A program made the translations under genes and the position numbers. From Croceicoccus pelagius (GTDB lineage Bacteria > Pseudomonadota > Alphaproteobacteria > Sphingomonadales > Sphingomonadaceae): a DNA stretch of 64,000 nt. The notes below the pieces were generated by a model. It did no database searches, was not told the DNA's origin, and worked only from the letters and a program-made list of their open reading frames with translations. Position 1 is the first letter of the stretch. Each line of letters opens with the position of its first letter. Location of the stretch: assembly GCF_001661915.1 (NCBI RefSeq), contig NZ_LYWY01000032.1, positions 124,001-188,000 on the forward strand. Direction: 5' to 3'. Shown here piece after piece: positions 277 through 45,634 of the stretch.

Positions 277-290
277 ACATACATGATTGT
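277..290. promoter_or_regulatory. Palindromic operator site 1 (ACATACATGATTGT)
   Basis: Half sites ACA and TGT flank a CATG core, with A-rich sequence on the left and a T run on the right. The site lies between the divergent truncated TetR gene and the TonB receptor gene. It is one of nine near-identical sites in the window (see findings). Confidence 0.7.
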
Positions 291-405
291 ATTTTTTATC
301 TTCACAAAAATGATCACATGCGTTCATTTATTGGACAGGCGAACAGCGCCGCACTGATTCGAGCCGCCAGCGACAGACATGGTGGCCGGAATGGGAGAGG
401 GTTTG

Positions 406-2751
406 ATGATCGGTAAGACACAGGCAAATTGCGCCCTGAAACTGTTGGCGACAGGGCTTCTGACCACGGCAAGCAGTCAGGTAATGGCCCAGACGGCCGC
501 GACCCAGGACACTACGGACAACGAACAACCGCAGGTCCAGCAGGCGCCATCGCGCGATGCAGGGCTTGAGGAAATCATCGTCACCGCACGCCGCGTGACG
601 GAATCACTGCAGGACACGCCAGTCGCGGTGACCGCGTTCACATCGGCGGCAATCGACGACAAGTTTGCGACCGACATTCGCGGCCTTGCAGGCGACGTGC
701 CCAACGTCGTCATCACCAACGTGCCGGGCTTCAACGCGGCCTCGATCGGCATTCGCGGCCAGTCCACCGGCGACATCATTCTAACGTTCGAACCGGCGGT
801 CGCCGTGGTCGTGGACGACTTCGTGCTCGCCCACGTGCAGACGCAGTTGTTCGATCTGTTCGACATCGACCGGATCGAAGTCCTGCGCGGTCCGCAGGGC
901 ACTCTGTTCGGCAAGAACACCGTCGGCGGTGTCGTGAACGTCATCACGAAAAAGCCCGAAGCCGGCTTTAGCGGCGAGGTTCGCCTTGGGTATTCGAGCT
1001 TCAACACCAAGGACGTGAAGCTCGCGCTCAACATCCCGCTGGCGGACAATCTCTATTTCCGTACGGCAGGTTCGTTCCAGGAAAGCGATGGGTACTACCG
1101 CCTGACCAAGAACAACGACGTCGACGGTATCCAGGGCGTGCCTGGCAACGGCCAGCGTTGGGGCGGATCGCGTTACTTCAGCAACCGCGCCAAGCTGCTC
1201 TGGGAACCGGGCCCAGCGAGCGAGCTCATGCTGACATACGAAATGCTGCGCGATCGCGGCGATTCGCCGCCGTCGGTGAACGAAACGCCCGAAGGCTTCC
1301 TGTTCGATGTGGTCGGCTTCCCCGGCATCCAGACGACAGGGGCCAGCCCTTTCGACACCGGCACCACGCTTTGCGAAGGGTCTGCCACCGATGCGACATG
1401 CCCCGGCACGCTCAGTGGCCACAGGGTCGATGTCGACGGCGTGTTCCTTCGCGGTGAGCATGGCATGGACGCAGGCACCGTTACCGTCGTCGGCGGCTGG
1501 CGGCGCGTGAAATCGCAGCTGCCTTCCGACTACACCGGCGAGAACGCCTACCTGTTCGTGTCCACCCGCGATGACGTGCGCGAACAGTACAGCGTGGAGG
1601 CGCGCTTCTCCTCCGACTTCTCGGACGTGTTCAAATTTACCGCCGGCGGCATGTACTGGGGCCAGACGCTGGACGCGAACGCGACCAGCTTCCTAGGCTT
1701 CCTCCGCTTCCTCGGCAGCCCCGGTTCGCTGACCGATCCGAACCTGTCCACCGCCGACTACAAGGTCGATTCCTACGCCGTCTTCGGCGAGGCGGAGTAC
1801 CAGGTCGCCGACCCGCTCGCAGTGTTCTTCGGTGCCCGTTACACCAAGGAAGAAAAGACCTTCTCGGTCCGCCCGCAGGTGCCGCGCTCGGTCGTCGAAG
1901 GTGGGTTCTGGCCGGAATATGGCGACAGCGCCAAGTTCGACCGTCCGACCATTCGTGCCGGTTATCGGTGGGACATCGCGCCGGGCATCAACAACTACTT
2001 CACCTACAGCCAGGGCTACAAGTCGGGCGGCTACAACGAACAGGCGATGTCGGCGACATCTGCCCTGCCGTTTGCCGAGGAAACTGCAGACAGCTTCGAA
2101 CTGGGCCTGAAAACCGAAACTGCCGACCGCCGCCTGCGCGTCAACGTTGCGGGCTTCTACGTGAAGTACAACGACCTGCAGCGCGACGCCGTCGTCCCCT
2201 TCATCGACCCGATCACCGGCCTTCCGGGGCAGGAGACGAAGACGACCAACGCCGGCAAGGCCGAGGTCTATGGCCTTGAGGTCGAGCTTTCGGCGAAACC
2301 GGTTGCAGGGCTTACGCTGGGCGCTGGCATGGGCTGGCAGAAGGCAAAGTACCTGGAGTTCTTCACCGACGTCGACGGCGACGGCATCAACGACGATGCG
2401 TCCTACCTTGGCCTGCGCAATGCGCCGGAACTGACGATGTCGGGCAATATCCGCTACGAATTCCCGCCGATGGACTGGGGCATCGTCGCGGTCACGGCCG
2501 ACGTGAACTATCAGTCGGAATACGAATCCGTGACGCTCAACGCCGACTATACGCAAGGCGAGGCTCGCACGCTTGTCGGCAGCAGCCTGTCATGGACCGA
2601 TCCGTCGGAGATGTACCGCATCGCGGTGTTCGGACGGAACCTGCTGGACGAACACTACCGCGTCAGCGCGAACTCGGTCGCGGGTCTGTTCAACTTCACC
2701 AACTATGCCCCGCCGCGTTCGTTCGGCATCGAGGGTTCGGCGAAGTTCTGA
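406..2751 (+). CDS. TonB-dependent outer membrane receptor
   Basis: Outer membrane beta-barrel that takes up a bulky or scarce substrate using TonB energy. A signal peptide (hydrophobic LLATGLLTTASS, ending VMAQ) is followed by the plug, which opens with EEIIVTARR near residue 55 and contains the family motif RIEVLRGPQGTLFGKNTVGG. A ~600-residue barrel ends in a terminal Phe (GSAKF), as outer membrane proteins usually do. Of several in-frame ATGs, 406 is chosen because GGGAGAGGG sits just before it; an ATG at 379 would add nine residues. About 781 aa, normal for the family. An operator of the window-wide palindrome family lies upstream, which suggests co-regulation with the oxygenase genes. 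The substrate is inferred, not visible. Confidence 0.95.
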   Translation: MIGKTQANCALKLLATGLLTTASSQVMAQTAATQDTTDNEQPQVQQAPSRDAGLEEIIVTARRVTESLQDTPVAVTAFTSAAIDDKFATDIRGLAGDVPNVVITNVPGFNAASIGIRGQSTGDIILTFEPAVAVVVDDFVLAHVQTQLFDLFDIDRIEVLRGPQGTLFGKNTVGGVVNVITKKPEAGFSGEVRLGYSSFNTKDVKLALNIPLADNLYFRTAGSFQESDGYYRLTKNNDVDGIQGVPGNGQRWGGSRYFSNRAKLLWEPGPASELMLTYEMLRDRGDSPPSVNETPEGFLFDVVGFPGIQTTGASPFDTGTTLCEGSATDATCPGTLSGHRVDVDGVFLRGEHGMDAGTVTVVGGWRRVKSQLPSDYTGENAYLFVSTRDDVREQYSVEARFSSDFSDVFKFTAGGMYWGQTLDANATSFLGFLRFLGSPGSLTDPNLSTADYKVDSYAVFGEAEYQVADPLAVFFGARYTKEEKTFSVRPQVPRSVVEGGFWPEYGDSAKFDRPTIRAGYRWDIAPGINNYFTYSQGYKSGGYNEQAMSATSALPFAEETADSFELGLKTETADRRLRVNVAGFYVKYNDLQRDAVVPFIDPITGLPGQETKTTNAGKAEVYGLEVELSAKPVAGLTLGAGMGWQKAKYLEFFTDVDGDGINDDASYLGLRNAPELTMSGNIRYEFPPMDWGIVAVTADVNYQSEYESVTLNADYTQGEARTLVGSSLSWTDPSEMYRIAVFGRNLLDEHYRVSANSVAGLFNFTNYAPPRSFGIEGSAKF

Positions 2752-2794
2752 TCGATGGCGCAGGGGCACTCTCCTTCCTCGCGCGCTACCGGTA

Positions 2795-2831
2795 CTCTCC
2801 CGGAACGGTCCCGTCGGCCGTTCCGGGAGAG
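2795..2831. terminator. Perfect 14-bp hairpin between convergent genes
   Basis: CTCTCCCGGAACGG, a 9-nt loop and the exact reverse complement lie between the TonB receptor stop (2751) and the stop of the convergent TPR gene (2842). There is no clear T run, so it is called a terminator-like stem from position and stability. Confidence 0.6.
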
Positions 2832-2841
2832 CTCGGCCGCG

Positions 2842-9556: not shown

Positions 9557-11932
9557 ATGGCGAAAGCGGAAAGCGTGGGCGGGGCGCAGCGGCGCCCACC
9601 CCTGTGGTCGCGCCTTCTCGCGGCGGTGTTCCTCGGCCTTGTCGGTCTTGCCCTACTGGGCGGAGGGGCGTGGCTGATCTCGCTTGGCGGGTCGGCCTAT
9701 TACGCCATTGCCGGCGCGGCCTGTCTCGCATCCGCTTTCCTCGTGTGGCGCGGCGACCATCGCGCCTTGCCGGTCTATGCCGCGCTGCTTGCAGGAACGC
9801 TCGTCTGGGCGGTCTGGGAAGTCGGGCTGACCTTCTGGCAACTCGTGCCGCGCCTGGCAGGGCCGGTGGTCATCGGGGTGGTCCTTGCCCTGCCCTTCGT
9901 CCAGCGCATGCTGGTGCGAAAGGGTCCGATAATGGCGCGCCTCCTGCCTGCCCTTGCGATAGGTGCGGCGGTTGCCGTCATGTCGGTCGCCTTCTTCCAG
10001 GTCCGCACTTACGACATGTCGCCGGGGGCCAGCCGCGTTGCCGCAGCCGTCTCCGACGATGGCCCCACCGACTGGACCGCATACGGCAGCAATGCGGCGG
10101 GCCTACGCCATTCGGGCGCTAACCAGATTACGCCCGCCAATGTCGCAAGCCTTGAACCTGCATGGTCGTTCGAGACCGGCGACACAAACGCCAAGCGCCC
10201 CGAGATCGGCCCCCCGATTTCATTCATGGCGACACCACTCATGGTGGACGACACCGTCTACTTCTGCTCGCCCACGGGGAAGGTCTTCGCGCTCGACGCC
10301 GATACGGGCAAGCCGGTCTGGACCCGCGATCCGCGCGCCGAAATCGGCAATGCGCAGATGCTGAATTGCCGCGGCGTGTCCTACCATGCCGATGCAAAAG
10401 AGGCGGGTCTTTGCTCCGCACGCATCCTTTCGATGACGGTCGATGGCCGTCTTCTTGCCAGCGATGCCAGGACTGGCAAGCCATGCCCCGATTTCGGCAA
10501 GAACGGCAGCATCGACCTGACTCAGGACCTTGGCTCGATCGACCCGCTGCGAAGCTATACCTCTTCGCCGCCCGCCATTATCGGCAATGTTGCAGTGCTC
10601 GGCTCTTACGTACGTGACAATTTCGACAAGGACGACCCGTCGGGCGTGGTTCGCGCGTTCGATGTTAAGAGCGGCAGGATGCTATGGGGTTGGGACAGCG
10701 GCAGGCCCGACGATGCGCCGCAGCCCGCAGCGGGAGAAGAATGGACCCGCGGTTCGCCCAACGCGTGGAGCGTGTTCAGCGCCGACCCTGACCTCGGCCT
10801 TGTCTACCTGCCCACCGGCAACGCCACGCCGGACCATGTCGGCACCCATCGCTCGCCCGATCTGGAACGCTATGCCAGTTCGATCGTCGCGCTCGACGTG
10901 GCGACCGGCAAAGTGCGCTGGAGCTTCCAGACCGTGCATCACGACATCTGGGACTACGACGTTCCGGCCCAACCGGTCCTGTTCGACCATCCATCGGCAA
11001 ACGGCCCCGTCCCCGCTCTGGCCGCACCGACCAAGCAGGGCGAGATCTTCATCCTCGACCGCCGCACCGGCAAGCCGCTGGTGCCCGTCGAAGAACGAGC
11101 CGTCCCACAAGGCAAACTGCCGGGTGAACGCTATTCCCCGACGCAGCCGTTCAACAGGAACTTCGCATCCTTTGCGCCGCCAGAACTGACCGAGGCTTCG
11201 ATGTGGGGCGCAACCCCGCTGGACCAGCTCTACTGTCGCATCCGGTTCCGCTCTCTCGATTACGAAGGGCTCTATACGCCCCCGTCGGAGCGCGGAACGA
11301 TCCAGTATCCCGGAACCTTCGGCACGCTCAACTGGGGCAGTGTGAGCATTGACACCGCACGCGAATTGATGATCGTGAACTCGGCGGCGATTCCGCAGGA
11401 AGTCCTGCTTTTCCCGCGTGACAGCGATGCCGACACGCCAGAGGAAGCGACCAGTTCGCACGCCCCCGGCTACCTGCCGCAGATCGGTACGAATTACGGG
11501 GTAAGCCTGTGGCCGATGCTGTCCCCGCTGGGCATTCCGTGCACTGCCCCGCCATGGGGGCACTTGTCCGCCGTGGACCTGAAGACCGGCAAGCTGGCAT
11601 GGAAACGCACCATCGGCACCAGCGAGGATGTCGCGCCGCTGGGCATCAAAATACCCGGCGCATTCAATCTTGGCGGATCGGTGACGACGGCGTCTGGCCT
11701 GACCTTTATCGGCGCGACCATCGACGATTACCTGCGCGCCTTCGATACCGAAACCGGCGAGGAGCTATGGAAGGGCCGCCTGCCCGCGGGGGGACAGGCG
11801 ACGCCGATCACTTACCGTTCGAAAAAGACGGGGCGGCAGTACGTCGTGATCGCAGCCGGTGGTCACATGTACATGGGCACAACGCCCGGCGACCATGTCG
11901 TCGCCTTCGCGCTTCCGGAGGGCAACGACTGA
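9557..11932 (+). CDS. Membrane-bound PQQ-dependent dehydrogenase (glucose/quinate dehydrogenase type)
   Basis: 791 aa. About five hydrophobic segments fill the first ~150 residues, as in membrane glucose dehydrogenase, and an eight-bladed PQQ propeller follows in the periplasm. Family features include DWTAYGSNAAGLRHSG at the start of the propeller, HHDIWDYDVPAQPVLFDHP around the active site, and a C-terminal PITYRSKKTGRQYVVIAAGG. It would oxidise an alcohol or sugar-like substrate and pass electrons to ubiquinone. It is the last gene of the operon and converges on the VOC gene with a 13-bp gap. Confidence 0.93.
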   Translation: MAKAESVGGAQRRPPLWSRLLAAVFLGLVGLALLGGGAWLISLGGSAYYAIAGAACLASAFLVWRGDHRALPVYAALLAGTLVWAVWEVGLTFWQLVPRLAGPVVIGVVLALPFVQRMLVRKGPIMARLLPALAIGAAVAVMSVAFFQVRTYDMSPGASRVAAAVSDDGPTDWTAYGSNAAGLRHSGANQITPANVASLEPAWSFETGDTNAKRPEIGPPISFMATPLMVDDTVYFCSPTGKVFALDADTGKPVWTRDPRAEIGNAQMLNCRGVSYHADAKEAGLCSARILSMTVDGRLLASDARTGKPCPDFGKNGSIDLTQDLGSIDPLRSYTSSPPAIIGNVAVLGSYVRDNFDKDDPSGVVRAFDVKSGRMLWGWDSGRPDDAPQPAAGEEWTRGSPNAWSVFSADPDLGLVYLPTGNATPDHVGTHRSPDLERYASSIVALDVATGKVRWSFQTVHHDIWDYDVPAQPVLFDHPSANGPVPALAAPTKQGEIFILDRRTGKPLVPVEERAVPQGKLPGERYSPTQPFNRNFASFAPPELTEASMWGATPLDQLYCRIRFRSLDYEGLYTPPSERGTIQYPGTFGTLNWGSVSIDTARELMIVNSAAIPQEVLLFPRDSDADTPEEATSSHAPGYLPQIGTNYGVSLWPMLSPLGIPCTAPPWGHLSAVDLKTGKLAWKRTIGTSEDVAPLGIKIPGAFNLGGSVTTASGLTFIGATIDDYLRAFDTETGEELWKGRLPAGGQATPITYRSKKTGRQYVVIAAGGHMYMGTTPGDHVVAFALPEGND

Positions 11933-11945
11933 GCGGGCGAACGGG

Positions 11946-12479
11946 TCAGAGCGCCTTGCGCTTCGTCTTGCCGTCCCAGTTGCGGACTTCGCCGCGGATC
12001 ATTTCGAATGTCTCGAACATGGCGTCGTAAGGCTGGATGATCTCGACGATCGGGCTCAGCCCCGGCTTGGCTGTGTCGAGATAGGCAAAGCGCGAAAGCG
12101 GCAGCGTGCCTTCCAGCAGAACCGGAACGCCCCGCGCCCGCGCATCGGCCATCACCGCGTCGTAGTCTTCGACGAACGTGCCGAAATGGTGGATGCCGCT
12201 CTGCCCCGATTCGAGGAATTCGCGGTATGTGGAAGCGGCTGTTCCCGGCTGGATCAATTCGATCATCGTGTCGCCGCTGTAGGATACGCCTACGCCTGCG
12301 AAGACCGGGTGATCGTTTGGCACTTTCTCCTCGCGCACGGCCAGTTCCTCGAATGGCAGGGGAATCGGGAATTCGAAGAAAGGCCCCACGCCCATCTTCG
12401 TCGTCCAGTGCTCGATCGCGGCGCCCAAATCGGGCACGACATAGGCTACCTGGAACGTTGTGCCGTAGATTTTGCTCAT
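11946..12479 (-). CDS. VOC-superfamily (glyoxalase/dioxygenase-like) protein
   Basis: 177 aa, two beta-alpha-beta-beta-beta modules (FQVAYVVPDLGAAIEHW at the start, GIHHFGTFVEDYDAVMADA in the second half). The start at 12479 is preferred because GGGAGAG lies upstream. An upstream in-frame ATG (12542) falls inside the palindromic operator. The family covers glyoxalases, extradiol dioxygenases and epimerases, so the reaction is open. It is divergent from the tandem Rieske genes and shares operator site 2. Confidence 0.85.
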   Translation of the reverse strand: MSKIYGTTFQVAYVVPDLGAAIEHWTTKMGVGPFFEFPIPLPFEELAVREEKVPNDHPVFAGVGVSYSGDTMIELIQPGTAASTYREFLESGQSGIHHFGTFVEDYDAVMADARARGVPVLLEGTLPLSRFAYLDTAKPGLSPIVEIIQPYDAMFETFEMIRGEVRNWDGKTKRKAL

Positions 12480-12534
12480 CTTCGTCTCTCCCGTGCTGCG
12501 CCCTGTCGTGTGCATGACGCTTGTCACTTGCAAA

Positions 12535-12548
12535 ACAATCATGACTGT
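12535..12548. promoter_or_regulatory. Palindromic operator site 2 (ACAATCATGACTGT)
   Basis: It lies in the 180-bp divergent promoter region between the VOC gene and the first tandem Rieske gene. The flanks AAA and TTTTT extend the dyad. Same consensus as the other eight sites. Confidence 0.75.
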
Positions 12549-12659
12549 TTTTTAATGACAGTCCAGCCCCCGCAGAGTCGGCCACCGAAAACAGGTCGCA
12601 TGCGGGACCGGTCCCGGATCGGATTTCCGGAGAAGAATCCCATTGGAGAGGGATACCTG

Positions 12660-14012
12660 ATGAAGCTCGATTTCGATGATTGGAACATCCACGTCGGCAC
12701 GCCGCACCCGTTCAACGGCCGTGCGCCCAAGATCGACAACGGTACCGGTCGCCCCGACCCGCGCCGCTATTACGACCGCGAATTCATGCGCGAGGAGTGG
12801 GAGAAGGTCTTCTGCAAGTCTTGGCTGCTCGCCGGCCACATTTCCGATATTCCGGAGGCTGGCGACTTCTTCCGGTTCGACATCGGCCCGGAAAGCTTCA
12901 TCATCGTTCGCGGCGAAGATGGTGGGGTAAAGGCGCACTACAACGTGTGCCCGCACCGCGGCAGCCAGCTGGTGACGACCGATTTCGGATCGGTGGACCA
13001 GTTCACCTGCCCCTTCCATTCCTGGAAATTCGACCTTGAAGGCAAGAACGTTGCCGTCACCGATGAAGAAACCTTCCGTCCCGAAGTGCTGTGCCACGGG
13101 CACGACCTGTCCTCTGTCCGCTGCGAAGTGGCATGCGGGCTGGTCTTCATCTCGATGGACGCCGATATCGAGCCGTTGAAGGAATGGCTCGCGCCGATCC
13201 TGCCACAGCTTGAACTCTACGACATGGACAAGATGTACGTCGTCCAGCATCGCCGTTCCGACTGGGGCGCGAACTGGAAGGGCGGCGTCGACGCCTTTGC
13301 AGAGATCTATCACCTGCACGCCGTGCATCCTCAGACCCAGTGCCTGATGGACGATCGCACCCAGATCGACCTGTGGCCCGGCGGCCTTTCGCGCCAGTTC
13401 GTGCCGTTTGCACAGCCTGCCGAACGCTATCACGATCAGGAAACGGTGAACCCCGGCATCCAGCTCATGCTGCGCGATGCAGGCATCGATCCCGAAACCT
13501 ACCAAGGCACCGCCGCCGAAACGCGTGAGGCCGTGCAGAAGGCAAAGCGCAAGCGGTCCGACGAACTCGGGCTCGGCTATGAAAAGTTCAGCGACAGCCA
13601 GCTTTCGGATTCGGTTGTCTATTCGCTGTTCCCGAACGCTCAGATCGGCTGCCACCCCGAGGCGATCTTCCTGCACCGGTTCATCCCGCACGAAAGCGAC
13701 CCGAACCAGTTCACCTACGACACCTGCATCCTTTACCGCCACGTCGACGCGCCCGGTTATCGCGCGCCTGCGTGGATGGGTTTGAGCGACGAAACCGACC
13801 TGTCGGGCAAGACGCGCCCGGAAATCGTGCACACTGGCCTTGGCGAACCGCCGGGCCTTGGCGAAGTGCTGGACCAGGATTCCGATCTCCTGCCCATCGT
13901 GCAGCAGGGTGCGAAGTCGCGCGGATTCCGCGGACCGTTGTGGAGCGAGCAGGAAGGACGCCTGCGCCACTTCCACGGCGAGCTCGACCGCCGCATGGAG
14001 AAGGGCTCGTGA
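12660..14012 (+). CDS. Rieske non-heme iron oxygenase, alpha subunit (tandem copy 1)
   Basis: 450 aa. The Rieske [2Fe-2S] ligands are in NVCPHRG and CPFHSW (about residues 98-122). The mononuclear iron motif is EIYHLHAVH near residue 220, with a likely Asp ligand in LDQDSDLLPIVQ near the C-terminus. It hydroxylates or dihydroxylates a ring substrate using electrons from a ferredoxin and reductase, neither of which is encoded here. GGAGAGGG precedes the ATG. It overlaps copy 2 by four bases (GTGA at 14009). There is no beta-subunit gene beside it. Confidence 0.95.
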   Translation: MKLDFDDWNIHVGTPHPFNGRAPKIDNGTGRPDPRRYYDREFMREEWEKVFCKSWLLAGHISDIPEAGDFFRFDIGPESFIIVRGEDGGVKAHYNVCPHRGSQLVTTDFGSVDQFTCPFHSWKFDLEGKNVAVTDEETFRPEVLCHGHDLSSVRCEVACGLVFISMDADIEPLKEWLAPILPQLELYDMDKMYVVQHRRSDWGANWKGGVDAFAEIYHLHAVHPQTQCLMDDRTQIDLWPGGLSRQFVPFAQPAERYHDQETVNPGIQLMLRDAGIDPETYQGTAAETREAVQKAKRKRSDELGLGYEKFSDSQLSDSVVYSLFPNAQIGCHPEAIFLHRFIPHESDPNQFTYDTCILYRHVDAPGYRAPAWMGLSDETDLSGKTRPEIVHTGLGEPPGLGEVLDQDSDLLPIVQQGAKSRGFRGPLWSEQEGRLRHFHGELDRRMEKGS

Positions 14013-15355
14013 ACTACGATCCGCGCAGCTGGGCGGTCCACAAAGGGTCCGACCATCCCTTCGACCAGCCGGCCCCCGCCATCGACAACGGGGCCGAACG
14101 GCTAGACCCTTCCCGCTACACCTCGAAGGCTTTCTTTGAGGCGGAATGGGAGAAGGTCTTTACCAAGACCTGGCTGCTGGCCGCGCCTGCCAGCGATCTT
14201 CAGGAACCGGGCGACTGGGTGAAGGTCGACATCGGGCGTGAAAGCTTCATCGTCGTTCGCGGCGAGAATGGCGCGGTACATGCACACTACAACGTGTGCC
14301 CACATCGCGGCAGTCAGCTGGTCACGACCGACATGGGTAGCCAGGACAGCTTCACCTGTCCGTTTCATTCCTGGCGCTTCGGCATCGACGGCAAGAACGA
14401 GAAGATCACCGACGAGGAGACCTTCCGCCCCGAAGTGCTGTGCCACGGCACCGACCTCACCTCGGTCCGCGCCGAGGAAGCGGTGGGCCTCGTCTTCATC
14501 TCGATGAGCGACGACGTCCCGCCGCTCAAGGAATTCCTCGCCCCGATCCTCGACATGCTGGAGACTTATCGCATCGACCTGATGCACGTCGTGCAGCATC
14601 GCCGGTCGGACTGGGCGGCGAACTGGAAGGGCGGGATCGATGCTTTCTACGAAAGCTATCACCTCCACGCGATCCATCCGCAAACGATGGGCGTGATCGA
14701 CGATCGCACGCACATCGATCTCTTTCCGAACGCCCTGTCGCGTCAGTTCGTGCCGATGGCGCAGCCCAATTCGCACTTCCCCGATCAGGAAGGCATCAAT
14801 CCGGGCATCGCCATGCTGCTCGCCGATGCGGGCGTGGACCCGGATACGTTCGACGGAACCGCTATGGAAAGTCGTGCCGCCGTGGCCCAGGCCAAGCGGG
14901 AGCGGGCGGAAAGGATCGGTCTCGACTATTCGCACTTCTCGGACGCGCAGTTGACCGATGCGACGATCTTCGGAATTTTCCCGAACATCCAGATCGGCTG
15001 TCACCCCGAGGCGGTGTTCCTGCACCGCTTCAACCCGCACGAAAGCGACCCCGAGCAGTTCACCTACGAAACGACGATCATGTACCGCCACGTCGATGCG
15101 CCCGGATATGGCGCGCCGGGCTGGATGGGGCTTGGCGACGATGTCGACGTGACCGGCGCGACGCGGCCCGAAGTCGTGCACACCGGCCTTGGCGAACCGC
15201 CGGGCATGGGTGAAGTGCTGGATCAGGATTCCGACCTGCTGCCGATCGTACAGAAGGGCGCAAGGTCACGCGGGTTCAACGGCCCGCTGTGGTGCGAACA
15301 GGAAGCGCGTCTGCGCCACTTCCACACCGAACTGGATCGCTGGCTCGCCAAGTAG
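14009..15355 (+). CDS. Rieske non-heme iron oxygenase, alpha subunit (tandem copy 2)
   Basis: 448 aa, strongly similar to the preceding gene along its whole length (shared blocks include EETFRPEVLCHG, VQHRRSDW and HTGLGEPPG). Rieske ligands are in NVCPHRG and CPFHSW, and the iron motif is ESYHLHAIH. It starts with GTG overlapping the upstream stop, so the two are translationally coupled and could form a hetero-oligomer or act on successive intermediates. Tandem duplication is the simple origin. A triple terminator-like repeat follows. Confidence 0.95.
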   Translation: MNYDPRSWAVHKGSDHPFDQPAPAIDNGAERLDPSRYTSKAFFEAEWEKVFTKTWLLAAPASDLQEPGDWVKVDIGRESFIVVRGENGAVHAHYNVCPHRGSQLVTTDMGSQDSFTCPFHSWRFGIDGKNEKITDEETFRPEVLCHGTDLTSVRAEEAVGLVFISMSDDVPPLKEFLAPILDMLETYRIDLMHVVQHRRSDWAANWKGGIDAFYESYHLHAIHPQTMGVIDDRTHIDLFPNALSRQFVPMAQPNSHFPDQEGINPGIAMLLADAGVDPDTFDGTAMESRAAVAQAKRERAERIGLDYSHFSDAQLTDATIFGIFPNIQIGCHPEAVFLHRFNPHESDPEQFTYETTIMYRHVDAPGYGAPGWMGLGDDVDVTGATRPEVVHTGLGEPPGMGEVLDQDSDLLPIVQKGARSRGFNGPLWCEQEARLRHFHTELDRWLAK

Positions 15356-17286: not shown

Positions 17287-17330
17287 CCAACCTTCTCCGT
17301 CGGCAACGGTAACGCCGAACCACCAAAAAG

Positions 17331-17344
17331 ACAAACAAGATTGT
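17331..17344. promoter_or_regulatory. Palindromic operator site 3 (ACAAACAAGATTGT)
   Basis: One mismatch in the CATG core (CAAG); half sites ACA and TGT are intact. It sits between the stop of the TetR gene (17381) and the start of the SDR at 17286, so it would control the two-SDR operon on the minus strand. Confidence 0.6.
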
Positions 17345-17380
17345 TTTATTATTGTGAGCCGCCGATGACGACATCAGCGC

Positions 17381-18031
17381 TCAGCCCATCGGCGGCATCA
17401 GTGCTCTGATCTGGTTTTCAAGATGGTTCAGCATGGGCGGCACCTGATCGGCCGACATGGCGCCGGTCTGAAGCTGGATCGCCATCCCTTCGAGTATCGT
17501 CTGCGACAGACGCATTGCAAGGTCGAACTTTTCCGGCGAACTGCGCCATTCGGGAAAGAGCGATTCGGCCTGCGTGTTGAACCGGTCGCGGAACTCTTCC
17601 TGCAGCGGCTCCATGATGCCGGCGAGATCCTTGTCCGTGCGCGCAGCGATTGCCAGTTCGTGAAAGGCGATGAAGCCCGGCTTCTGGACTTGCGTCCAGT
17701 AAGTCTCGACTAGGTTGTCGACGTCGTGTTCGGTCTCGCCCGCGGCGCGGCGGAAGGCGCGCAGACGCTTTTCGTGCAATTCGCGGATCGTCGCCTTGAT
17801 CAACGCGGCACCGTTTTCGAAGTGGTGCATCATCGCCCCGCGCGATAGCCCCGCCTCTTCCGCGACGCGCGGCGTGGTGGTCCTGGCATAACCGTATTTG
17901 ACGAGGCAGCGCACAGTCGCATCGATCAGGCGCTTGCGCGTCTGCGCGGCCTTGGCAGCCTGCAGCGTCCCGCCGCCTGCCTTGGCTGTCGACGTGCTGC
18001 TGTCGTTGGTGCGCGTGCGCGATGTGCTCAT
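17381..18031 (-). CDS. TetR-family repressor, paralog A; candidate regulator of the palindrome regulon
   Basis: 216 aa. The N-terminal HTH has recognition region TTTPRVAEEAGLSRGAMMHHFEN (split by helix turns), followed by an all-helical ligand domain. It is clearly paralogous to the TetR at 33.2 kb across its whole length, with near-identical recognition helices (GLSRGAMxHHFEN) and QVQKPxFxAFxELA in the ligand domain. Operator site 4 lies between it and the divergent acyl-CoA ligase, which fits autoregulation. The inducer is probably a pathway CoA ester or the substrate, by analogy only. Confidence 0.93.
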   Translation of the reverse strand: MSTSRTRTNDSSTSTAKAGGGTLQAAKAAQTRKRLIDATVRCLVKYGYARTTTPRVAEEAGLSRGAMMHHFENGAALIKATIRELHEKRLRAFRRAAGETEHDVDNLVETYWTQVQKPGFIAFHELAIAARTDKDLAGIMEPLQEEFRDRFNTQAESLFPEWRSSPEKFDLAMRLSQTILEGMAIQLQTGAMSADQVPPMLNHLENQIRALMPPMG

Positions 18032-18182
18032 GCCGGTTCGATTCCAGTTTCTCGGTGCGGGTAGTCCCTCGAACTGATTTCACGAGAAGCTTTATGCCGC
18101 AATTGATCCTTAAGGGCAGCAGGGCGGAAAGCGCAAGCATCGGCCCGACGCCACGATCGCAGCGATCCGCCGCAAGAAACAT

Positions 18183-27388: not shown

Positions 27389-27451
27389 CGATGTCTTCTC
27401 CCATGCATCGTGCGAGCGCCTTGGAGGCGGCGCTACGATAATCTATTAAAA

Positions 27452-27602: not shown

Positions 27603-28232
27603 TTGGACGCCAATAGCCTGGACAACATCTCTCATGCCGATCCGGCGCAGAGGAAAGATCGGGAGGACCGCTGGCAGCAGGTCGTTGCGGTTTCTGCCGC
27701 TCTCTTTGCCGAGAAGGGATACGAGGCGACTTCCCTGCGTGAAATTGCCGAGCGTGTCGGCATGCTCAAGGGCAGCCTCTATCACTACATCAACGGCAAG
27801 AGCGACCTACTGGTCCACGTCCTGCGCGAGGCACATTCACGCGGTGTGCTGGTTCTCACCGGTATAGCGGAACGCGAGGGTCGGGCCCTGGAACGGCTGG
27901 AAGACGTCATCACGGCCCATGCCAGGTACATCTTCACCGAACGCGTCTTTACCGCCGGTTTCATCGAGGCGCACCGCCATCTGACGCCCGATCGTGCGCG
28001 CGAGTTCGACCTTGCCGAGCGCAACTATCGCAAGGCGGTAGAACGGCTGATTGCGCGAGGTCAGGCCGAGGGCGAGTTGCGCCACGATATCGACCCGAAA
28101 GTCAGCGCGCTTTGTCTGCTGGGCTTTTTGAACTCGCTCCACGGCTGGGCAAAGCCTGCCAGCGGACTCACCACCCGGCGGCTTTGCGATCATGCGCTCG
28201 TCATGGGTCTCGGCGGGCTTCGGAAGGCCTGA
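27603..28232 (+). CDS. TetR-family regulator
   Basis: 209 aa. The HTH is KGYEATSLREIAERVGMLKGSLYHYINGKSDLL (in two helices), typical of TetR members that control fatty acid and CoA-ester catabolism. TTG start at 27603 with GGAGAGG just upstream. Its recognition helix (MLKGSLYHY) differs from the two palindrome-linked TetRs, so it probably binds a different operator, perhaps the CCAAAC inverted repeat. It is divergent from the Rieske operon and converges on the crotonase gene. Confidence 0.92.
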   Translation: MDANSLDNISHADPAQRKDREDRWQQVVAVSAALFAEKGYEATSLREIAERVGMLKGSLYHYINGKSDLLVHVLREAHSRGVLVLTGIAEREGRALERLEDVITAHARYIFTERVFTAGFIEAHRHLTPDRAREFDLAERNYRKAVERLIARGQAEGELRHDIDPKVSALCLLGFLNSLHGWAKPASGLTTRRLCDHALVMGLGGLRKA

Positions 28233-29533: not shown

Positions 29534-30685
29534 TCACAAAGTCGCCATGCTGCCGAGGACGACGGTGGCCTGACTGGACAGGGTGCCGCCGTTGCCGTGC
29601 GCGAGGGCAAGGTTCACATCTTCAAGCTGGTTCGCCGCCTCGCCGCGGATCTGGCGCGCGGCTTCGATGATCGCGAAGAGGCCGTACATGCCGGGATGGC
29701 AATAGGACAGGCCGCCGCCATTGGTGTTGACCGGCAGGCTTCCGCCCGGCGCGATCGCCCCCGATGCCACGAAAGGCCCACCCTCACCCTTGGCGCAGAA
29801 ACCGAGGTCTTCGAGAAACAGGATCGTATTGATCGTGAAGGCGTCGTAAAGCTGCACGGTGTCGAAGTCCGCAGGCTTCACCCCGGCCATCTCCATCGCC
29901 CGCGCGCCCGATTCCCGCGCGCCCGTCATGGTGAGGTCTTCTGCCTGCGACACCGAATTCCACCAAGCCGCAGCAGCAGAGCCCAGCACCGGCACCGGCA
30001 CCTTCGCACAGTCTTTTGCCCTGTCCATCCGCGTCATCACGATAGCGGCGGCGCCATCGGTCACAAGGCAGCAATCGGCTTTGGAAATCGGCGTGCTGAT
30101 CATGCGGGCCGAAAGACAGTCCTCCATGGTCAGCGGGCCACGCGCAAAAGCCTCGGGATTGGTCTGCGCCCATGCCCGAGCCGCCAGTGCGACCGATGCC
30201 AATTCCTCGCGCGTCGTGCCGAAGACATGCATGTGGCGCGCCGCTGCCAGCGCATAGTGGCTCAGCGGGTAGAGCGGCTCGTAAGGCGCGTCCCACTGGT
30301 CGTTCGTGATCTTGATCTGCAGCTTCCCGCCGCTCGTCCGCTGGTTCGAACCGTAAGCGATCAGCGCGCAGTCGATGTACCCCGCCTCCAGCGCAAGCGC
30401 GGCGCTGGCGACGTGGCTCATGAAGGCCGACCCGCCGGTGCGATTGTTGTCCGTATAGCGCGGCCTGATCCCGAGATATTGGGCAAGGGACAGCCCCGCG
30501 AAGAAGTCTGTAGGCTGGCAGACATAAAGCGCATCGACATCGGCCAGCGTGAGCCCCGCATCGTCGAGCGCCATCAACCCGGCCTTCGCGGTCAGCTCCA
30601 TCGAGGTATGGCCGGGAGCCTCGCCGACGCCATATGTCGCCAGGCCAGCAATCGCGGTTCCTCCGCGCGGGAATACGTCGCTCAT
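29534..30685 (-). CDS. Thiolase-like protein (lipid-transfer/SCP-x thiolase branch) without the nucleophilic Cys
   Basis: 383 aa thiolase fold. The usual active Cys position reads NRTGGSAFMSH, with Ser/Ala instead of Cys. The late region has YDAFTINTILFLEDLGFC and GGLSYCHPGMYGLF. This pattern fits the Ltp2-like retro-aldolase branch, which cleaves side chains of CoA-linked steroids and works with a DUF35 partner, such as the gene just upstream. Start overlaps the DUF35 stop (ATGA at 30685). The Ltp2-like reaction is inference from family and context. Confidence 0.88.
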   Translation of the reverse strand: MSDVFPRGGTAIAGLATYGVGEAPGHTSMELTAKAGLMALDDAGLTLADVDALYVCQPTDFFAGLSLAQYLGIRPRYTDNNRTGGSAFMSHVASAALALEAGYIDCALIAYGSNQRTSGGKLQIKITNDQWDAPYEPLYPLSHYALAAARHMHVFGTTREELASVALAARAWAQTNPEAFARGPLTMEDCLSARMISTPISKADCCLVTDGAAAIVMTRMDRAKDCAKVPVPVLGSAAAAWWNSVSQAEDLTMTGARESGARAMEMAGVKPADFDTVQLYDAFTINTILFLEDLGFCAKGEGGPFVASGAIAPGGSLPVNTNGGGLSYCHPGMYGLFAIIEAARQIRGEAANQLEDVNLALAHGNGGTLSSQATVVLGSMATL

Positions 30686-31050
30686 GCTGCCTCCCCTGCG
30701 AGCCGGAACAGCAAGACCGGTTCCTCGCCGCTCCTGTCGACGAAGGCCTCAACCTCCTGCCCGATCCCGAGCGTATCGGGCGAGGCGTCCTCGACCCGGC
30801 TCATCAGCCGCGCACCTTCAGCGAGATCGACCAGAACGACATTGTAAGGTTCTTGCGGCGGCTTGCGCTGGATCCAGGTCAGCGAATAGATCGTGCCCCT
30901 GCCCGAACCCTCGAACCATTCGAGCCCGCCCTCGCCCGTGCCGGGGGTGGCCACGCGCGGCGGGAAGACGGCCTTGCCGTGGGCCGTGCGCTGCAACAGC
31001 AAGCGCCCCTCGGCCAGCGCCTCACGCCATTCCGCTTCGGGTCCCTTCAC
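30682..31050 (-). CDS. DUF35/OB-fold partner protein with degenerate zinc ribbon
   Basis: 122 aa. The OB-fold half (GTIYSLTWIQRKPPQEPYNVVLVDLAEG) is clear. The rubredoxin-like zinc ribbon before it keeps its framing (LLLQRTAHGKAVFPPRVATPG) but all four Cys are gone. DUF35 proteins pair with thiolase-like aldolases, matching the coupled downstream gene. It starts with GTG overlapping the CoA-transferase stop (GTGA) and ends in ATGA with the thiolase. Confidence 0.85.
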   Translation of the reverse strand: MKGPEAEWREALAEGRLLLQRTAHGKAVFPPRVATPGTGEGGLEWFEGSGRGTIYSLTWIQRKPPQEPYNVVLVDLAEGARLMSRVEDASPDTLGIGQEVEAFVDRSGEEPVLLFRLAGEAA

Positions 31051-32264
31051 GCCGCGACACCTGCCTTTGCAACCGCGCCCTTGGCGACGAGATCCTCGAT
31101 CTCGGCCTCACTGAAGCCTGCATCGCGCAGGATCGTCTCGCCGTCGCCGCCCAGTCCGGGGCCGGGATCGCCGATCGCGCCGGGAGTGTCGGAAAAGCTG
31201 GTCGGGATGCCCGGGAAACGGATCGTGCCCATATCGGTATGACGCTCGTCCCAGAAGCCGGTTTCTTCCAGATGCGGGTCGACCAGCAGATCCTCAAGGC
31301 TCGCGATCGCGGTCGCGGGGATATGCGCGCGGCGGAACAGTTCGACCCACTCCTCTGTCGTGCGCGTTTCCAGCACACGCGCAACCTGGGCCAGCACCTT
31401 GCCGATATTCTGCGTGCGCGTCCGCATCGAGGCGTAGATCGGGTCCTTCGACCATTCGGGATGGCCAAGCTCTGCAAAGAAGTTCTGCCAGTGCCGGTCG
31501 TTGTAGATCATGACCCCGATATAGCCGTTCGACGTGCGATAGGGACGCCGCGCCTCCGACGTGGCACGCGGATATTCGGGCGGACCCTGCGGCGGCACGA
31601 AGAGCGAGCCGCAAAGGTGTTCGACCATTGTGAAGGATACCAGCGTCTCGAACATCGGGACCTCGATCTCCTGCCCGCGCCCCGTCTTCTCGCGCGCATA
31701 GAGCGCGGCCATGACGGAATAGGCGCCGGTCAGTCCGGCAACCTTGTCCGCGATCACTGTCGCCGTATAGGTCGGCACGCCGTCCGACAGCTTGGCCTGA
31801 AGATCGACGATGCCGGATGCGGCCTGCACGATGTCGTCATACGCCGGGTAGTCGCGATAGGGGCCATTTCGCGAAAAGCCGTACATGTTGGCGTAAATGA
31901 TACGATCGTTCGCCCCGCGCAGGGCCGCGTAATCGAGGCCAAGCCGCCCGATCGCGCTGGCCCGCATAGAATGGATGAAAACGTCCGTCTCACCCGCCAA
32001 CCGCAGGAGCGTATTGCGCCCTTCAGGGTTCTTCAGGTCGAGCACGATCGAGCGCTTGCCGCGATTGACGTTCAGGAACATCGCACCGCGCGAATGGTCC
32101 GGCCCCGGCGGAATAAAGCGCGTTGTATCGCCTTGCGGGCTCTCCACCTTGATGACGTCGGCGCCAAGATCGGCGAAGATCTGGGTCGCGTAAGGCCCCA
32201 TCAGCACGCTGGTCAGGTCCAGCACCTTCACGCCGGCCAATGGCCCCTTGCCGCGTCCGCTCAC
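31047..32264 (-). CDS. Class III CoA transferase (CaiB/BaiF family)
   Basis: 405 aa from GTG at 32264, which has GGAGAAG upstream; the longer frame starting at 32336 runs through operator site 7. GPLAGVKVLDLTSVLMGPYATQ is the family N-terminus. A likely catalytic Asp is in VIADKVAGLTGAYSVMAALYAR. GRGQEIEVPMFE follows. It moves CoA from a donor to a pathway acid, an ATP-free way to activate an intermediate. It is the first gene of the CoA-transferase/DUF35/thiolase operon. Confidence 0.93.
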   Translation of the reverse strand: MSGRGKGPLAGVKVLDLTSVLMGPYATQIFADLGADVIKVESPQGDTTRFIPPGPDHSRGAMFLNVNRGKRSIVLDLKNPEGRNTLLRLAGETDVFIHSMRASAIGRLGLDYAALRGANDRIIYANMYGFSRNGPYRDYPAYDDIVQAASGIVDLQAKLSDGVPTYTATVIADKVAGLTGAYSVMAALYAREKTGRGQEIEVPMFETLVSFTMVEHLCGSLFVPPQGPPEYPRATSEARRPYRTSNGYIGVMIYNDRHWQNFFAELGHPEWSKDPIYASMRTRTQNIGKVLAQVARVLETRTTEEWVELFRRAHIPATAIASLEDLLVDPHLEETGFWDERHTDMGTIRFPGIPTSFSDTPGAIGDPGPGLGGDGETILRDAGFSEAEIEDLVAKGAVAKAGVAA

Positions 32265-32332
32265 AAGTCTTCTCCACGCATCACGTTGTTCTCTTCCCCG
32301 CCCGTCTAGCGCAGAACCGTCCGCAAAAAAAG

Positions 32333-32346
32333 ACATACATGACTGT
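32333..32346. promoter_or_regulatory. Palindromic operator site 7 (ACATACATGACTGT)
   Basis: It lies in the divergent region between the CoA transferase (minus) and the TIM-barrel gene (plus). Identical to site 6. The poly-A before and T run after extend the dyad. Confidence 0.75.
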
Positions 32347-32377
32347 CTTTTCGTGTTAGCCGAAAGGAAAGCTGCAA

Positions 32378-32425: not shown

Positions 32426-33229
32426 GTGAGCGACCGTTTCCCGCTTTCGCTGCACCACCTGACCGCGCTCGACGCAACGCCCGCGCAACTGGTCGAACTT
32501 GCCCAGGACAGCGGGTGCGCGCACGTCTGCCTGTTCACCTACGTGCCGGAGGCCGCTCGGGACGCGTTTGCGATGGTCATGCCGGACGACGTTCCGGCCC
32601 TGAAGGCGGTGATGGACAAGTGCGGGATAACTGCCTGCAACCTTGAGGTCTTCCCGCTCGACGGTACCGATGATGCAGCAGGCTTTGCCTCTGCGCTTCA
32701 AACCGGAGCCGCACTGGGCGCGACGCGGGCTACAGCGCATATTCACGAAGTTGCGGACGAAGCCGAAGCCATCGCACGATTTGCGGCGTTCTGCGACTTG
32801 GCCAAAGAACACGGCATCGTCGCCGGGCTAGAGTTCAATGCCTTCTCCGCCGTGAACGATATCGAGAGCGCGGCGCGCATCGTACACGGGGCCGGACGGG
32901 CGAACGGACAACTTGTATGCGATGCATTGCATCTGTTCCGCAACGGCGGGACGGTCGAGGCCGTTGCTGCGCAAGCCGACATCATCGGCTATGCCCAGTT
33001 CTGCGACGGGCCGATGGAGCGCGACCGATCCGAGTGGTGGCGTGAGGCAGTCGGCACCCGCGAACTGGCGGGCTGCGGGGAATTTCCGCTGAGCGAGCTT
33101 GCAGAAGTGCTTCGGGAGGGAACGGTCATCGAAGTCGAAATACCGCGAAAGGCCGAAATGAAAGCAGGCATACCCGCTGCCGACCGCGTCAGGGCAGCCG
33201 TCACGGCAGTAAGATCCGTGCTTCCTTAA
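32426..33229 (+). CDS. Sugar-phosphate isomerase/epimerase-like TIM-barrel protein
   Basis: 267 aa, AP-endonuclease-2/xylose-isomerase-like barrel. Recognisable positions are LEVFPLDG, ATAHIHEVAD, LEFNAFSAV (metal Glu), LVCDALHLFRNGG and EVEIPR. Members include isomerases and hydrolases of ring-cleavage products. GTG start with GAGAGGA upstream. Its stop shares a TTAA with the stop of the convergent TetR, so the two ends overlap by four bases. Confidence 0.85.
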   Translation: MSDRFPLSLHHLTALDATPAQLVELAQDSGCAHVCLFTYVPEAARDAFAMVMPDDVPALKAVMDKCGITACNLEVFPLDGTDDAAGFASALQTGAALGATRATAHIHEVADEAEAIARFAAFCDLAKEHGIVAGLEFNAFSAVNDIESAARIVHGAGRANGQLVCDALHLFRNGGTVEAVAAQADIIGYAQFCDGPMERDRSEWWREAVGTRELAGCGEFPLSELAEVLREGTVIEVEIPRKAEMKAGIPAADRVRAAVTAVRSVLP

Positions 33230-33858
33230 GTAGCCTTTGGCCGCATATCGATGATCTTGGCCTCCAGCATCTTGAGCAGGTGCGGGACCATGCCCTTTTC
33301 CAACGCGCCGGTCGAAAGGCTGGTCGCCATCCCCTCCATAAGCGTCTGCGATAGCGCGATGGCCTTGGCAAAATCGTCGGGCGCGGAGTGCCATTCGGGA
33401 TAGAGCGCGATCGCCTCGCTCATGAAGCGTTCGCGATATTCTGTCTGTAGCGGGCGCATGATCTCGGCAAGGACTTCGTCGGTGCGAGCCGCCATCGCCA
33501 GTTCCTGGAAGGCCAAGAAAGCCGGCTTCTGCACCTGCTTCCAATAGGCATAGACCATCGTCGCCGGTTCGTGGTCGCCGGCTTCCGACGACCTGCGGAA
33601 CGCGCGCAAGCGACGCTCGTGCAGTTCCACGATCGTCGCGCGAATCAGCGTCGCGCTGTTTTCGAAATGATGCAGCATCGCGCCGCGCGACAGGCCCGCC
33701 TCGGATGCGACCAGCGGCGTCGTCGTGCGCGCATAGCCTACCTTGACGAGGCACTGGATCGTCGCCTCGATCAGCCGCCCACGTGTCTGCGCGCTCTTGA
33801 TCGACTGGCGGGTCGGTGCTTGCTCTTCGCCTGCGGCTTTCTTTGTTCTTGTTGCCAC
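33226..33858 (-). CDS. TetR-family repressor, paralog B; candidate regulator of the palindrome regulon
   Basis: 210 aa, GTG start with GGGAG upstream. Same architecture as paralog A (17.4 kb): HTH with VASEAGLSRGAMLHHFEN, then QVQKPAFLAFQELAMAARTDE in the ligand domain. The recognition helices differ at one position only (MM versus ML). Operator site 8 is ~78 bp upstream of its start and has no other gene to serve, which argues for autorepression. Confidence 0.93.
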   Translation of the reverse strand: MATRTKKAAGEEQAPTRQSIKSAQTRGRLIEATIQCLVKVGYARTTTPLVASEAGLSRGAMLHHFENSATLIRATIVELHERRLRAFRRSSEAGDHEPATMVYAYWKQVQKPAFLAFQELAMAARTDEVLAEIMRPLQTEYRERFMSEAIALYPEWHSAPDDFAKAIALSQTLMEGMATSLSTGALEKGMVPHLLKMLEAKIIDMRPKAT

Positions 33859-33935
33859 TAGAGGCTCCCGAATTGTCGCCGGCCCCGCACTTGCAGGGCC
33901 GTTTTCTTTTCCGGCGCCTCTCCTACGCCAGTTAA

Positions 33936-33949
33936 TCAGTCATGATTGT
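33936..33949. promoter_or_regulatory. Palindromic operator site 8 (TCAGTCATGATTGT)
   Basis: It lies between the DUF808 gene stop (34004) and TetR paralog B (start 33858). The T run that follows is on the plus strand, as in the other sites. The likely target is the TetR promoter. Confidence 0.72.
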
Positions 33950-34003
33950 TTTTTTGCTCGCACTCGTCAATCCGTCGCGTGAATTTGCCCCCGATCGACA
34001 CCG

Positions 34004-44538: not shown

Positions 44539-44654
44539 GGCAGGGTCGGTTCTCGAATTGGTGAGGGGCCGCCATGCCTTAGTGTCGCGCGCCGCCAATG
44601 CCAAGCGCGCTTTGTCCGAAATTGCCCCATCGGCGCAGCACTGCGCCGCACACG

Positions 44655-44915
44655 CTACTGCGCGGCGCGGCGTCCCTTGACCCAGCGCCACAGCCCCCAG
44701 ACAATCGCGATGTTGAGCAGCGGCGTCAGCACGAAGGGCATGACACCTTCCACGCCCATGCGGTCGGCCAGAATATTCCACGGCAGACCCAGCGGCAGAA
44801 GGAACACGGCCGACAGGGGATCCTGCTCCTGCCCGAACAGTCCGAACGTGCCGATGATCAACAGTGCAAGCGCCGCCAGATAGAGCGCGACATAGATACC
44901 CAAGAGCCACTTCAT
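44655..44915 (-). CDS. Small membrane protein, paralog of the gene at 45.6 kb
   Basis: 86 aa with about two to three hydrophobic segments ([37 protein letters not shown]). It shares MKWL, a central GLPWxxxxD/F stretch and an NIxIxWxxx end with the protein at 45647-45910. Function unknown. It lies 50 bp after the AhpD-like gene on the same strand. Confidence 0.7.
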
Positions 44916-44964
44916 CGCAGCAAGTCCCCCGCCACCAAACATGATGGCGGGGGCATAGCAGATG

Positions 44965-45504
44965 TCAGGCCGCTTCGCTAAGGGGGCCGCCGATGCTGCA
45001 GGCCATGTCGACGCCAAGCACGTGGGCAACGCGGCCCATCGCCATCCATGCGGCGGTGGCATAAGTCAGCTCGACAATCTCGGCGTCGGAAAGGTGCTGC
45101 TTGATTTCGGTCCAGAAAGCCTCGTCACGGGCGAGGCCCTGCGGGTCCTGGCCCATGCGCTGCGAATAGCGCACTGCGATGCGCTCACGATCCGAAAGCG
45201 CCGAAAGGTCGCCGTTGAGCACGGCCTGATACATCGCCTCGTCGGGATGTTCGTCCTGCTCCAGAACGCCTGCATCGAGACCGATCGCCCGCAGGTCGCG
45301 TTCGGAGCGCCAGTTCTTGCACACGACGCAGCCGTTGATAACCGCGGTAGCAATGCGGCACGCCTCGAACATGCGCAGCGGCAGCGTGGAGAACCGGTAA
45401 GGCGCCATGGCAAAGCCGTCCGCCGCCTTGATGATCTCGGGCGAATACTGAGCCGCAAGGCTGGGAATCGGGGAATTCGGCTGGGGATCCAGGGCAACGC
45501 GCAT
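44965..45504 (-). CDS. Carboxymuconolactone decarboxylase/AhpD-like protein
   Basis: 179 aa. The AhpD-like core has a redox CxxC (NGCVVCKNW) near residue 60, followed by LSDAEIVELTYATAAWMAMGR. Such proteins act as peroxidase partners or ring-lactone decarboxylases. The ATG at 45504 has GGAGAGAG upstream. Operator site 9 sits ~117 bp upstream, linking it to the aromatic/steroid-like regulon although its neighbours are housekeeping. Confidence 0.88.
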   Translation of the reverse strand: MRVALDPQPNSPIPSLAAQYSPEIIKAADGFAMAPYRFSTLPLRMFEACRIATAVINGCVVCKNWRSERDLRAIGLDAGVLEQDEHPDEAMYQAVLNGDLSALSDRERIAVRYSQRMGQDPQGLARDEAFWTEIKQHLSDAEIVELTYATAAWMAMGRVAHVLGVDMACSIGGPLSEAA

Positions 45505-45620
45505 GATGCTCTCTCCGGTAAGCGGGGGCCTCGTTGTCGTCTCTTGCGGACCGGCCCTCCCGTCGGGCGGCGCCTCGCCGCTCCGTTCTACGGGCAAGGC
45601 TACGCAGACCCCGCAAAGAG

Positions 45621-45634
45621 TCAATCATGTTTGT
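45621..45634. promoter_or_regulatory. Palindromic operator site 9 (TCAATCATGTTTGT)
   Basis: Half sites TCA/TGT and CATG are kept; the right spacer is TT instead of AC/AT. It lies between the stop of a small membrane gene (45647) and the AhpD-like gene it would control, followed by TTTT. Confidence 0.58.

Follow-up and report, generated by a model that had tools for sequence, protein, structure and literature searches.

Nine palindromic sites in a catabolic region of Croceicoccus pelagius: probable operators of a TetR-type repressor system

Introduction

Do nine similar palindromes scattered over one catabolic region of Croceicoccus pelagius form the operator set of a single regulon, and which protein would read them? 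The question is raised by a stretch of 64,000 nucleotides (contig NZ_LYWY01000032.1, positions 124,001 to 188,000 of the forward strand), which is here called the window. A first-pass annotation had described nine near-identical 14-mers in front of genes for catabolic enzymes, a TonB receptor and a TetR-type protein, and had proposed common regulation with the TetR paralogues A and B as candidate regulators. Our sequence analysis makes it highly probable that the nine sites are the operators of one TetR-type repressor system run by TetR A and/or TetR B.

Putative operator sites in the window

The pattern WCANNCATGWNTGT gave 13 strand matches in the window at nine start positions (277, 12535, 18179/18183, 19938, 27452, 32333, 33936 and 45621), which represent eight separate sites, with two overlapping 14-mers within one 18-bp sequence at 18179-18196. 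The chance expectation was 0.06 matches, as estimated from dinucleotide shuffles, and 13 matches were reached in none of 100 shuffles. The ninth place, 17331 (ACAAACAAGATTGT), differs from the 14-mer of the first-pass annotation by one mismatch, CAAG replacing CATG; the other eight places match it. Yet 17331 scored 32.1 with a matrix derived from other genera, and it has counterparts before the same gene for a short-chain dehydrogenase/reductase (SDR) in the loci L061-L064. When the window was scanned with this matrix, the top nine places were exactly these nine sites with scores of 27.1-44.5, while the best non-overlapping place reached -4.9 (at 63291).

The A tracts to the left and T tracts to the right of the 14-mers are mostly present as described before; however, they are not separate elements but the reverse-complementary outer arms of one palindrome of about 22 bp. 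Among 38 sites from other genera, read on both strands, the four positions in front of the core (-4 to -1) have a symmetrised information content of 0.85-2.14 bits, and A is the commonest base at each of them. The sequence flanking the palindrome differs between the sites, only the palindrome is common to them. In the following list, the method of detection is given for each site; model R1 is a sequence-only model from 33 other-genera sites on both strands.

Site 1: 273..294, core 277-290, between tetR D (-) and a TonB receptor gene (+); pattern, matrix, R1
Site 2: 12531..12552, core 12535-12548, between a vicinal oxygen chelate (VOC) gene (-) and a Rieske-Rieske operon (+); pattern, matrix, R1
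Site 3: 17327..17348, core 17331-17344 with CAAG centre, upstream of an SDR-SDR operon (-); matrix, R1
Site 4: 18175..18200, cores 18179-18192 and 18183-18196, between tetR A (-) and an acyl-coenzyme A (CoA) ligase gene (+); pattern, matrix, R1
Site 5: 19934..19955, core 19938-19951, upstream of an SDR-Rieske-acyl-CoA dehydrogenase operon (+); pattern, matrix, R1
Site 6: 27448..27469, core 27452-27465, between a Rieske-SDR-VOC-thioesterase-MaoC operon (-) and tetR C (+); pattern, matrix, R1
Site 7: 32329..32350, core 32333-32346, between a CoA transferase-OB fold-thiolase operon (-) and a TIM-barrel gene (+); pattern, matrix, R1
Site 8: 33932..33953, core 33936-33949, upstream of tetR B (-); pattern, matrix, R1
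Site 9: 45617..45638, core 45621-45634, upstream of a carboxymuconolactone-decarboxylase/AhpD-like gene (-); pattern, matrix, R1

According to the gene caller, eight of the nine sites are intergenic; the exception is 12535, which falls inside the called open reading frame (ORF) of a Rieske protein. At this place the called gene and the longest ORF both run through the site, whereas in L061 the Rieske counterpart begins 116 bp beyond the site, and the VOC gene there is 27 bp away. Similarly, the longest ORF at 17331 begins inside the site and the L061 counterpart starts 97 bp away.

Distribution in the genome and putative target genes

Counted by strand, the strict pattern matches the own genome (3.30 Mb, 40 contigs) 16 times; 15 of these matches lie in C25:116494-169634 on the contig of the window and one at C37:178300, whereas the reversed control pattern gave no match in this genome. 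When the genome was searched with model R1, for which 150 of 306 first-look candidates were scored, 12 sites were obtained and nothing further up to E 10. These are the nine in the window plus C25:116487, C25:116558 and C37:178293; site 3 was the weakest (E 0.2). The family of nine was therefore an undercount, with 12 strong sites in the genome and perhaps a weak thirteenth at C37:183694 (matrix score 25.8), located between Rieske and flavin mononucleotide-oxidoreductase genes. With a longer pattern including the arms and up to two mismatches, 17 places were found in the genome compared to one for the control; these are the 12 sites, C37:183691 and four elsewhere. Hence, the matches concentrate at promoters of the putative regulon and are not randomly distributed inside genes.

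Two of the additional sites, C25:116494 and C25:116565, lie about 7.5 kb left of the window upstream of a TonB receptor. In this region (C25:116494-116578, L013:11495-11579) the two operators lie at a distance of 71 bp from each other in the space that separates the receptor gene from a SnoaL-type gene, and would belong to the same regulon; the receptor gene heads a stretch with Rieske and pyrroloquinoline quinone (PQQ)-dehydrogenase genes. The site on the other contig (C37:178293-178316, L014:8301) is situated between a TonB receptor gene and a gene for a KstD-like flavin adenine dinucleotide dehydrogenase, whose closest solved relative is 3-oxosteroid 1-dehydrogenase (E 5e-91).

The first-pass annotation named a single TetR gene among the targets, but all four tetR genes are preceded by sites (A 18183, B 33936, C 27452, D 277). 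The other putative targets in the window are as follows, with operon extents as we infer them.

379..2751 (+): TonB-dependent receptor
11946-12542 (-): VOC gene, as ORF; true start probably downstream of site 2
11895..14012 (+): Rieske oxygenase alpha subunit ORF; true start probably downstream of the 12535 site
14009..15355 (+): Rieske oxygenase alpha subunit, target operon
15511-16263 and 16324-17334 (-): two SDR genes, target operon; true start of the latter probably downstream of the site
18193..19920 (+): acyl-CoA ligase; true start probably further downstream (98 bp from the site in the L061 counterpart)
20055..23370 (+): SDR, Rieske oxygenase, acyl-CoA dehydrogenase, target operon
23383..27388 (-): Rieske, SDR, VOC, acyl-CoA thioesterase, MaoC, target operon
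29534..32264 (-): CoA transferase, OB-fold protein, thiolase, target operon
32426..33229 (+): TIM-barrel protein
44965..45504 (-): carboxymuconolactone-decarboxylase/AhpD-like protein (ORF 44965-45624: E 4.9e-4, below the Pfam curated cut-off)

The part of the window from 4374 to 11932 is without an operator of its own; by eye, its genes were named as SDR, cupin, M24 peptidase-like, E1 alpha/beta, lipoyl and PQQ dehydrogenase genes.

Co-occurrence with TetR A and TetR B

Four TetR-type proteins are encoded in or beside the window.

17381..18031 (-): TetR A, 216 aa, likely cognate regulator
33226..33858 (-): TetR B, 210 aa, paralogue of TetR A
27603..28232 (+): TetR C, TetR_C_24 type, probably a target rather than the regulator of the operator
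C25:123460-124188 (-): tetR D, just left of the window, with site 1 upstream

The helix-turn-helix (HTH) domain TetR_N (PF00440) was detected above cut-off in A (E 3.8e-12), B (E 4e-10) and C (E 3.6e-14). TetR A and B share 79% identity in the 47-residue HTH part and 54% in the remainder, and in the tree they belong to groups of 29 and 10 rows, respectively, with a support of 100/99 for both. None of the NCBIfam TetR equivalogs (BetI, ScbR-like, MtrR, AcrR, KstR) scored above its curated cut-off for A, B or C; the best scores were 45.8 against 150 for A, 39.4 against 201.3 for B and 74.1 against 150 for C.

The A/B-type TetR, called at E ≤ 1e-40, is present in eight of 14 genomes of the genus and was not found at this threshold in the other six. 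All eight carriers have 16-27 strand matches to R1 (E ≤ 1), while all six genomes without it have none; taking the genomes as independent, the chance of such a split is 1 in 3003. The CoA transferase of the cluster is distributed over these genomes in the same manner. One A/B-type TetR seems to be enough for the operator set, because four of the eight carriers have a single one. Together with the conserved sites upstream of their own genes, this all-or-none co-occurrence makes it very likely that the regulator is TetR A and/or its sister TetR B, and hence supports the link that the first-pass annotation had drawn.

In a comparison of recognition helices, the diverged paralogues G017b, G150b, G083b and G056b were found to be without a full upstream site. 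This lends weak support to A/B as binders, because G118b, G189b, G073 and G173 have a near-normal recognition helix and yet also lack the full site. Inspection by eye for A-type and B-type sites according to their inner bases gave no clear split.

Conservation in other genomes

The association extends to the family, for which 249 genomes were compared with the own genome set aside. The 18 genomes with an A/B-type TetR have on average 7.2 strict matches, compared to 1.13 in the 230 genomes without it (Mann-Whitney p 4.7e-11); when the genus was left out, the 14 remaining carriers still had a mean of 5.6 (p 1.5e-8). Four genomes of genus g89 (G153, G203, G089, G243) have 3-8 strict matches and no A/B-type TetR at this threshold; G089 encodes a distant relative with 29% identity. 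Perhaps these matches represent a related operator.

The motif was also derived independently of the window pattern, by a dyad scan over all trimer dyads with gaps of 0-17 and 40 shuffle rounds, to which the motif was not supplied. The input consisted of 27 regions that precede A/B-type tetR genes in 18 other genomes. Rank 1 was ACA-N8-TGT, found in 12 regions compared to 0.78 expected, and rank 2 AAA-N14-TTT, found in 15 compared to 2.40 expected. A 14-mer with all ten fixed bases is present in 10 of these regions, one with nine in a further 9.

Of 75 named A/B-type tetR loci, some of which come from genomes used to train the matrix, 63 carry a site in the 360 bp upstream. These loci contain 187 matches of score ≥20 in 860 kb, whereas 19 of 20 column-permuted matrices gave 0-8 matches on the same sequence. 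In 31 loci that were scanned together with gene calls, 111 of 114 matches of score ≥20 fall outside called genes (place 277 is counted twice because two loci overlap, and L087 has none); the three intragenic matches are 12535, its counterpart in L062 and L078:15477. Similar gene families recur beside the sites, i.e. the divergent pairs tetR/ligase or tetR/SDR, Rieske, VOC/Rieske, CoA transferase with thiolase, and SnoaL or monooxygenase genes beside TonB receptors. This recurrence, together with the restriction in the own genome, supports a common catabolic regulon under TetR A/B as proposed earlier. In many tetR-SDR and TonB-receptor intergenic regions two operators occur about 70-120 bp apart, probably one per promoter. 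Loci with paired operators are L065, L066, L067, L069, L070, L074, L076 and L180.

Furthermore, TetR matches were found in 5 plasmid records from three genera, and two of these records (RAC03, PP1Y) were examined for sites. Plasmid pBSY17_1 of Sphingobium sp. RAC03 (L180, 836071-866658) carries a compact module with annotated genes, in which nine of nine matches of score ≥10 are intergenic, though only 1677 of the 30588 bases are; no site was found directly before the CoA transferase gene in this stretch. This compact plasmid-borne cluster suggests horizontal spread of the module. It holds much of the module, and a 2-oxo acid dehydrogenase complex is part of it; thus E1/E2 genes are annotated within the RAC03 module, while the stretch 4374-11932 of the window, in which E1 genes were named by eye, has no operator of its own. 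The megaplasmid stretch of Novosphingobium sp. PP1Y, a record without annotated genes for which our own gene calls were used, has six sites of score ≥15.

Promoter layout and proposed mechanism

In 183 non-redundant oriented promoters, TANNNT occurs at offset 32 in 15 and at offset 33 in 12 promoters, compared to an upstream background of 0.88 per offset; a smaller peak is seen at offsets 36-37 (8 and 4 promoters). The palindrome arm TTGTTT begins at offset 10, which leaves a spacing of 16-17 bp to this -10 box and places the arm at the position of a -35 box. Examples in the window are 17331 (TTGTCT-17-TACCGT) and 45621 (TTGACT-16-TAGCCT), and to its left 116494 (TTGTTT-16-TATCGT). Since in some promoters the operator would thus overlie the -35 box, repression is the likely and best reading of the layout.

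From the sites, their restriction and conservation, the A/B co-occurrence and the -10 positions in part of the promoters we infer the following mechanism. Dimers of TetR A and/or B would bind the palindrome of about 22 bp (AAAAACAnnCATGnnTGTTTTT) over the -35 region of the catabolic promoters, in part of which the TTGTTT-like arm itself may serve as -35 box, followed after 16-17 bp by a -10 box. In the bound state, TetR would silence a single promoter or the two promoters of a divergent pair, and it would also limit its own synthesis. A pathway metabolite or substrate may then release TetR, which would turn on uptake by TonB receptors, ring oxidation by Rieske proteins, and SDR and CoA-thioester steps together.

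Some observations weigh against this interpretation. The -10 box at offsets 32-33 is present in only 27 of the 183 promoters, so the layout with the arm as -35 box fits a part of them; among the nine window sites it is well developed only at 17331 and 45621, and most of the others have no good -10 box at the expected place. The sites behind the matrix and model R1 had initially been selected with the window-derived pattern, therefore the core is not independent of it, and 7 of the 27 regions in the dyad scan come from the window's genus (four of the 18 genomes). Eight of these 27 regions have no 14-mer better than 8 of 10 fixed bases, and 12 of the 75 named tetR loci lack an upstream site. Moreover, 14 of the 230 family genomes without A/B-type TetR still show 4-8 pattern matches, and one of the 20 permuted matrices gave 73 matches. 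In the own genome, the pattern ACANNCATGNNTGT with one mismatch allowed is noisy, with 38 places compared to 13 for the control, and four of the arm-pattern places lie outside the regulon (C25:248317, C10:9443, C15:1477, C30:39257).

A dual role, in which TetR A/B at these sites would repress its own gene yet activate the catabolic promoters, is rather improbable, because most TetR proteins are repressors and a dimer bound where the arm coincides with the -35 hexamer at a spacing of 16-17 bp would block sigma. Nevertheless, where the peak -10 box is present, the centre of the operator falls at about -38, close to a class II activator position, and in 6 of 129 oriented promoters CTTGWC is found 20 bp before the core, which implies a different geometry with the operator over the -10 of that promoter. 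Furthermore, TetR-type proteins with both activities exist, reportedly LuxR of V. harveyi among them (PMC2628434).

Even less probable is a different binder, i.e. TetR C, TetR D or an unlinked protein, with A and B as mere targets. Sites do precede tetR C and tetR D, but TetR C is present in only four and TetR D in seven of the eight site-carrying genomes of the genus, which makes them poorer candidates than the A/B type found in all eight; moreover, the sole annotated TetR of the 30.6-kb RAC03 stretch is of the A/B type. That a near-identical sequence at many places represents a dispersed repeat or chance matches without a regulatory role is hardly conceivable, given that the flanks differ, that nearly all matches avoid called genes, that site places are kept across genera, and that shuffles and 19 of 20 permuted matrices gave few matches or none. 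Repression by TetR A and/or B is hence the reading that we prefer.

Relation to known systems

By sequence, the best solved relative of TetR A is TtgR (E 2.6e-13, residues 27-134), which controls efflux pumps; the alignment is limited to the DNA-binding part plus the beginning of the remainder, and A and B score far below the cut-offs of their NCBIfam matches.

KstR and KstR2 are TetR repressors of cholesterol catabolism in mycobacteria and rhodococci (PMC3068626). Similar to the system proposed here, two TetR regulators act in one catabolism with a palindromic motif in several promoters, and the regulon was defined by motif, expression and conservation. However, KstR and KstR2 act independently (PMC3068626), whereas A and B appear to share one operator; they also belong to other bacteria than the system proposed here, and TetR C matches the KstR model weakly, below cut-off (33.8 against 280). 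In another sphingomonad, Caenibius tardaugens, the TetR protein EGO55_16300 of the bile-salt clusters is likewise located in a catabolic cluster with palindromes as proposed operators, but these palindromes, ATAGGGCCATTG and GCATGCGGGATGC, are unlike the operator found here (PMC12882949). The sphingomonad repressor PheR of Sphingobium sp. SHPJ-2 also joins catabolic and TonB-receptor genes, which rise upon its loss; it differs in being discussed as an IclR family member with the minimal motif GCAACG (PMC13273656). Four spellings of the motif gave no match in the open PMC literature searched, with subscription papers mostly outside that search, nor was an operator or regulon of this make-up described in the titles, abstract beginnings and passages that were consulted. 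Generally, the system would be a further example of familiar TetR-type control.

Pathway content and substrate

Comparisons with Pfam, NCBIfam and PDB gave broad classes only for the pathway proteins; the scanned Rieske proteins are of the Ring_hydroxyl_A type. The KstD-like gene beside the C37 site prompted the idea of a steroid or bile-salt substrate, and a metagenome-assembled genome labelled Novosphingobium sp. Chol11 carries an A-type TetR. Against a KshA-dependent 9,10-seco steroid pathway speaks that the required KshA_C Rieske oxygenase (PF19298) gave no match in the own genome, although the control was weak, since one of 14 control genomes matched and none over cut-off. With this result and the differing palindromes published for another sphingomonad, such a substrate is not claimed. 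For lignin dimers and resin acids nothing fitting was found in the papers searched.

Implications for the proposed regulon

One more far-reaching picture is put forward tentatively, and as a whole we would not expect it to hold in every part: two sister repressors with nearly the same DNA-reading and diverged sensing domains might share one operator and integrate two signals at the same 12 sites, where single palindromes would serve divergent pairs with each arm as one promoter's -35 box; the operator would also govern the unrelated tetR C and D as a small cascade, and the module, on plasmids in at least two genera, might degrade an alicyclic or terpenoid-like compound.

As counted by hand with the predicted operon extents, up to 18 transcription units on two contigs would be tied to one regulator pair; three TonB receptors and four or five Rieske oxygenases are among their products. 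The regulon would thereby delimit a whole unnamed pathway in Sphingomonadales, and the operator offers a direct route to its substrate, as a compound that detaches TetR A or B from a 30-bp site would point to it.

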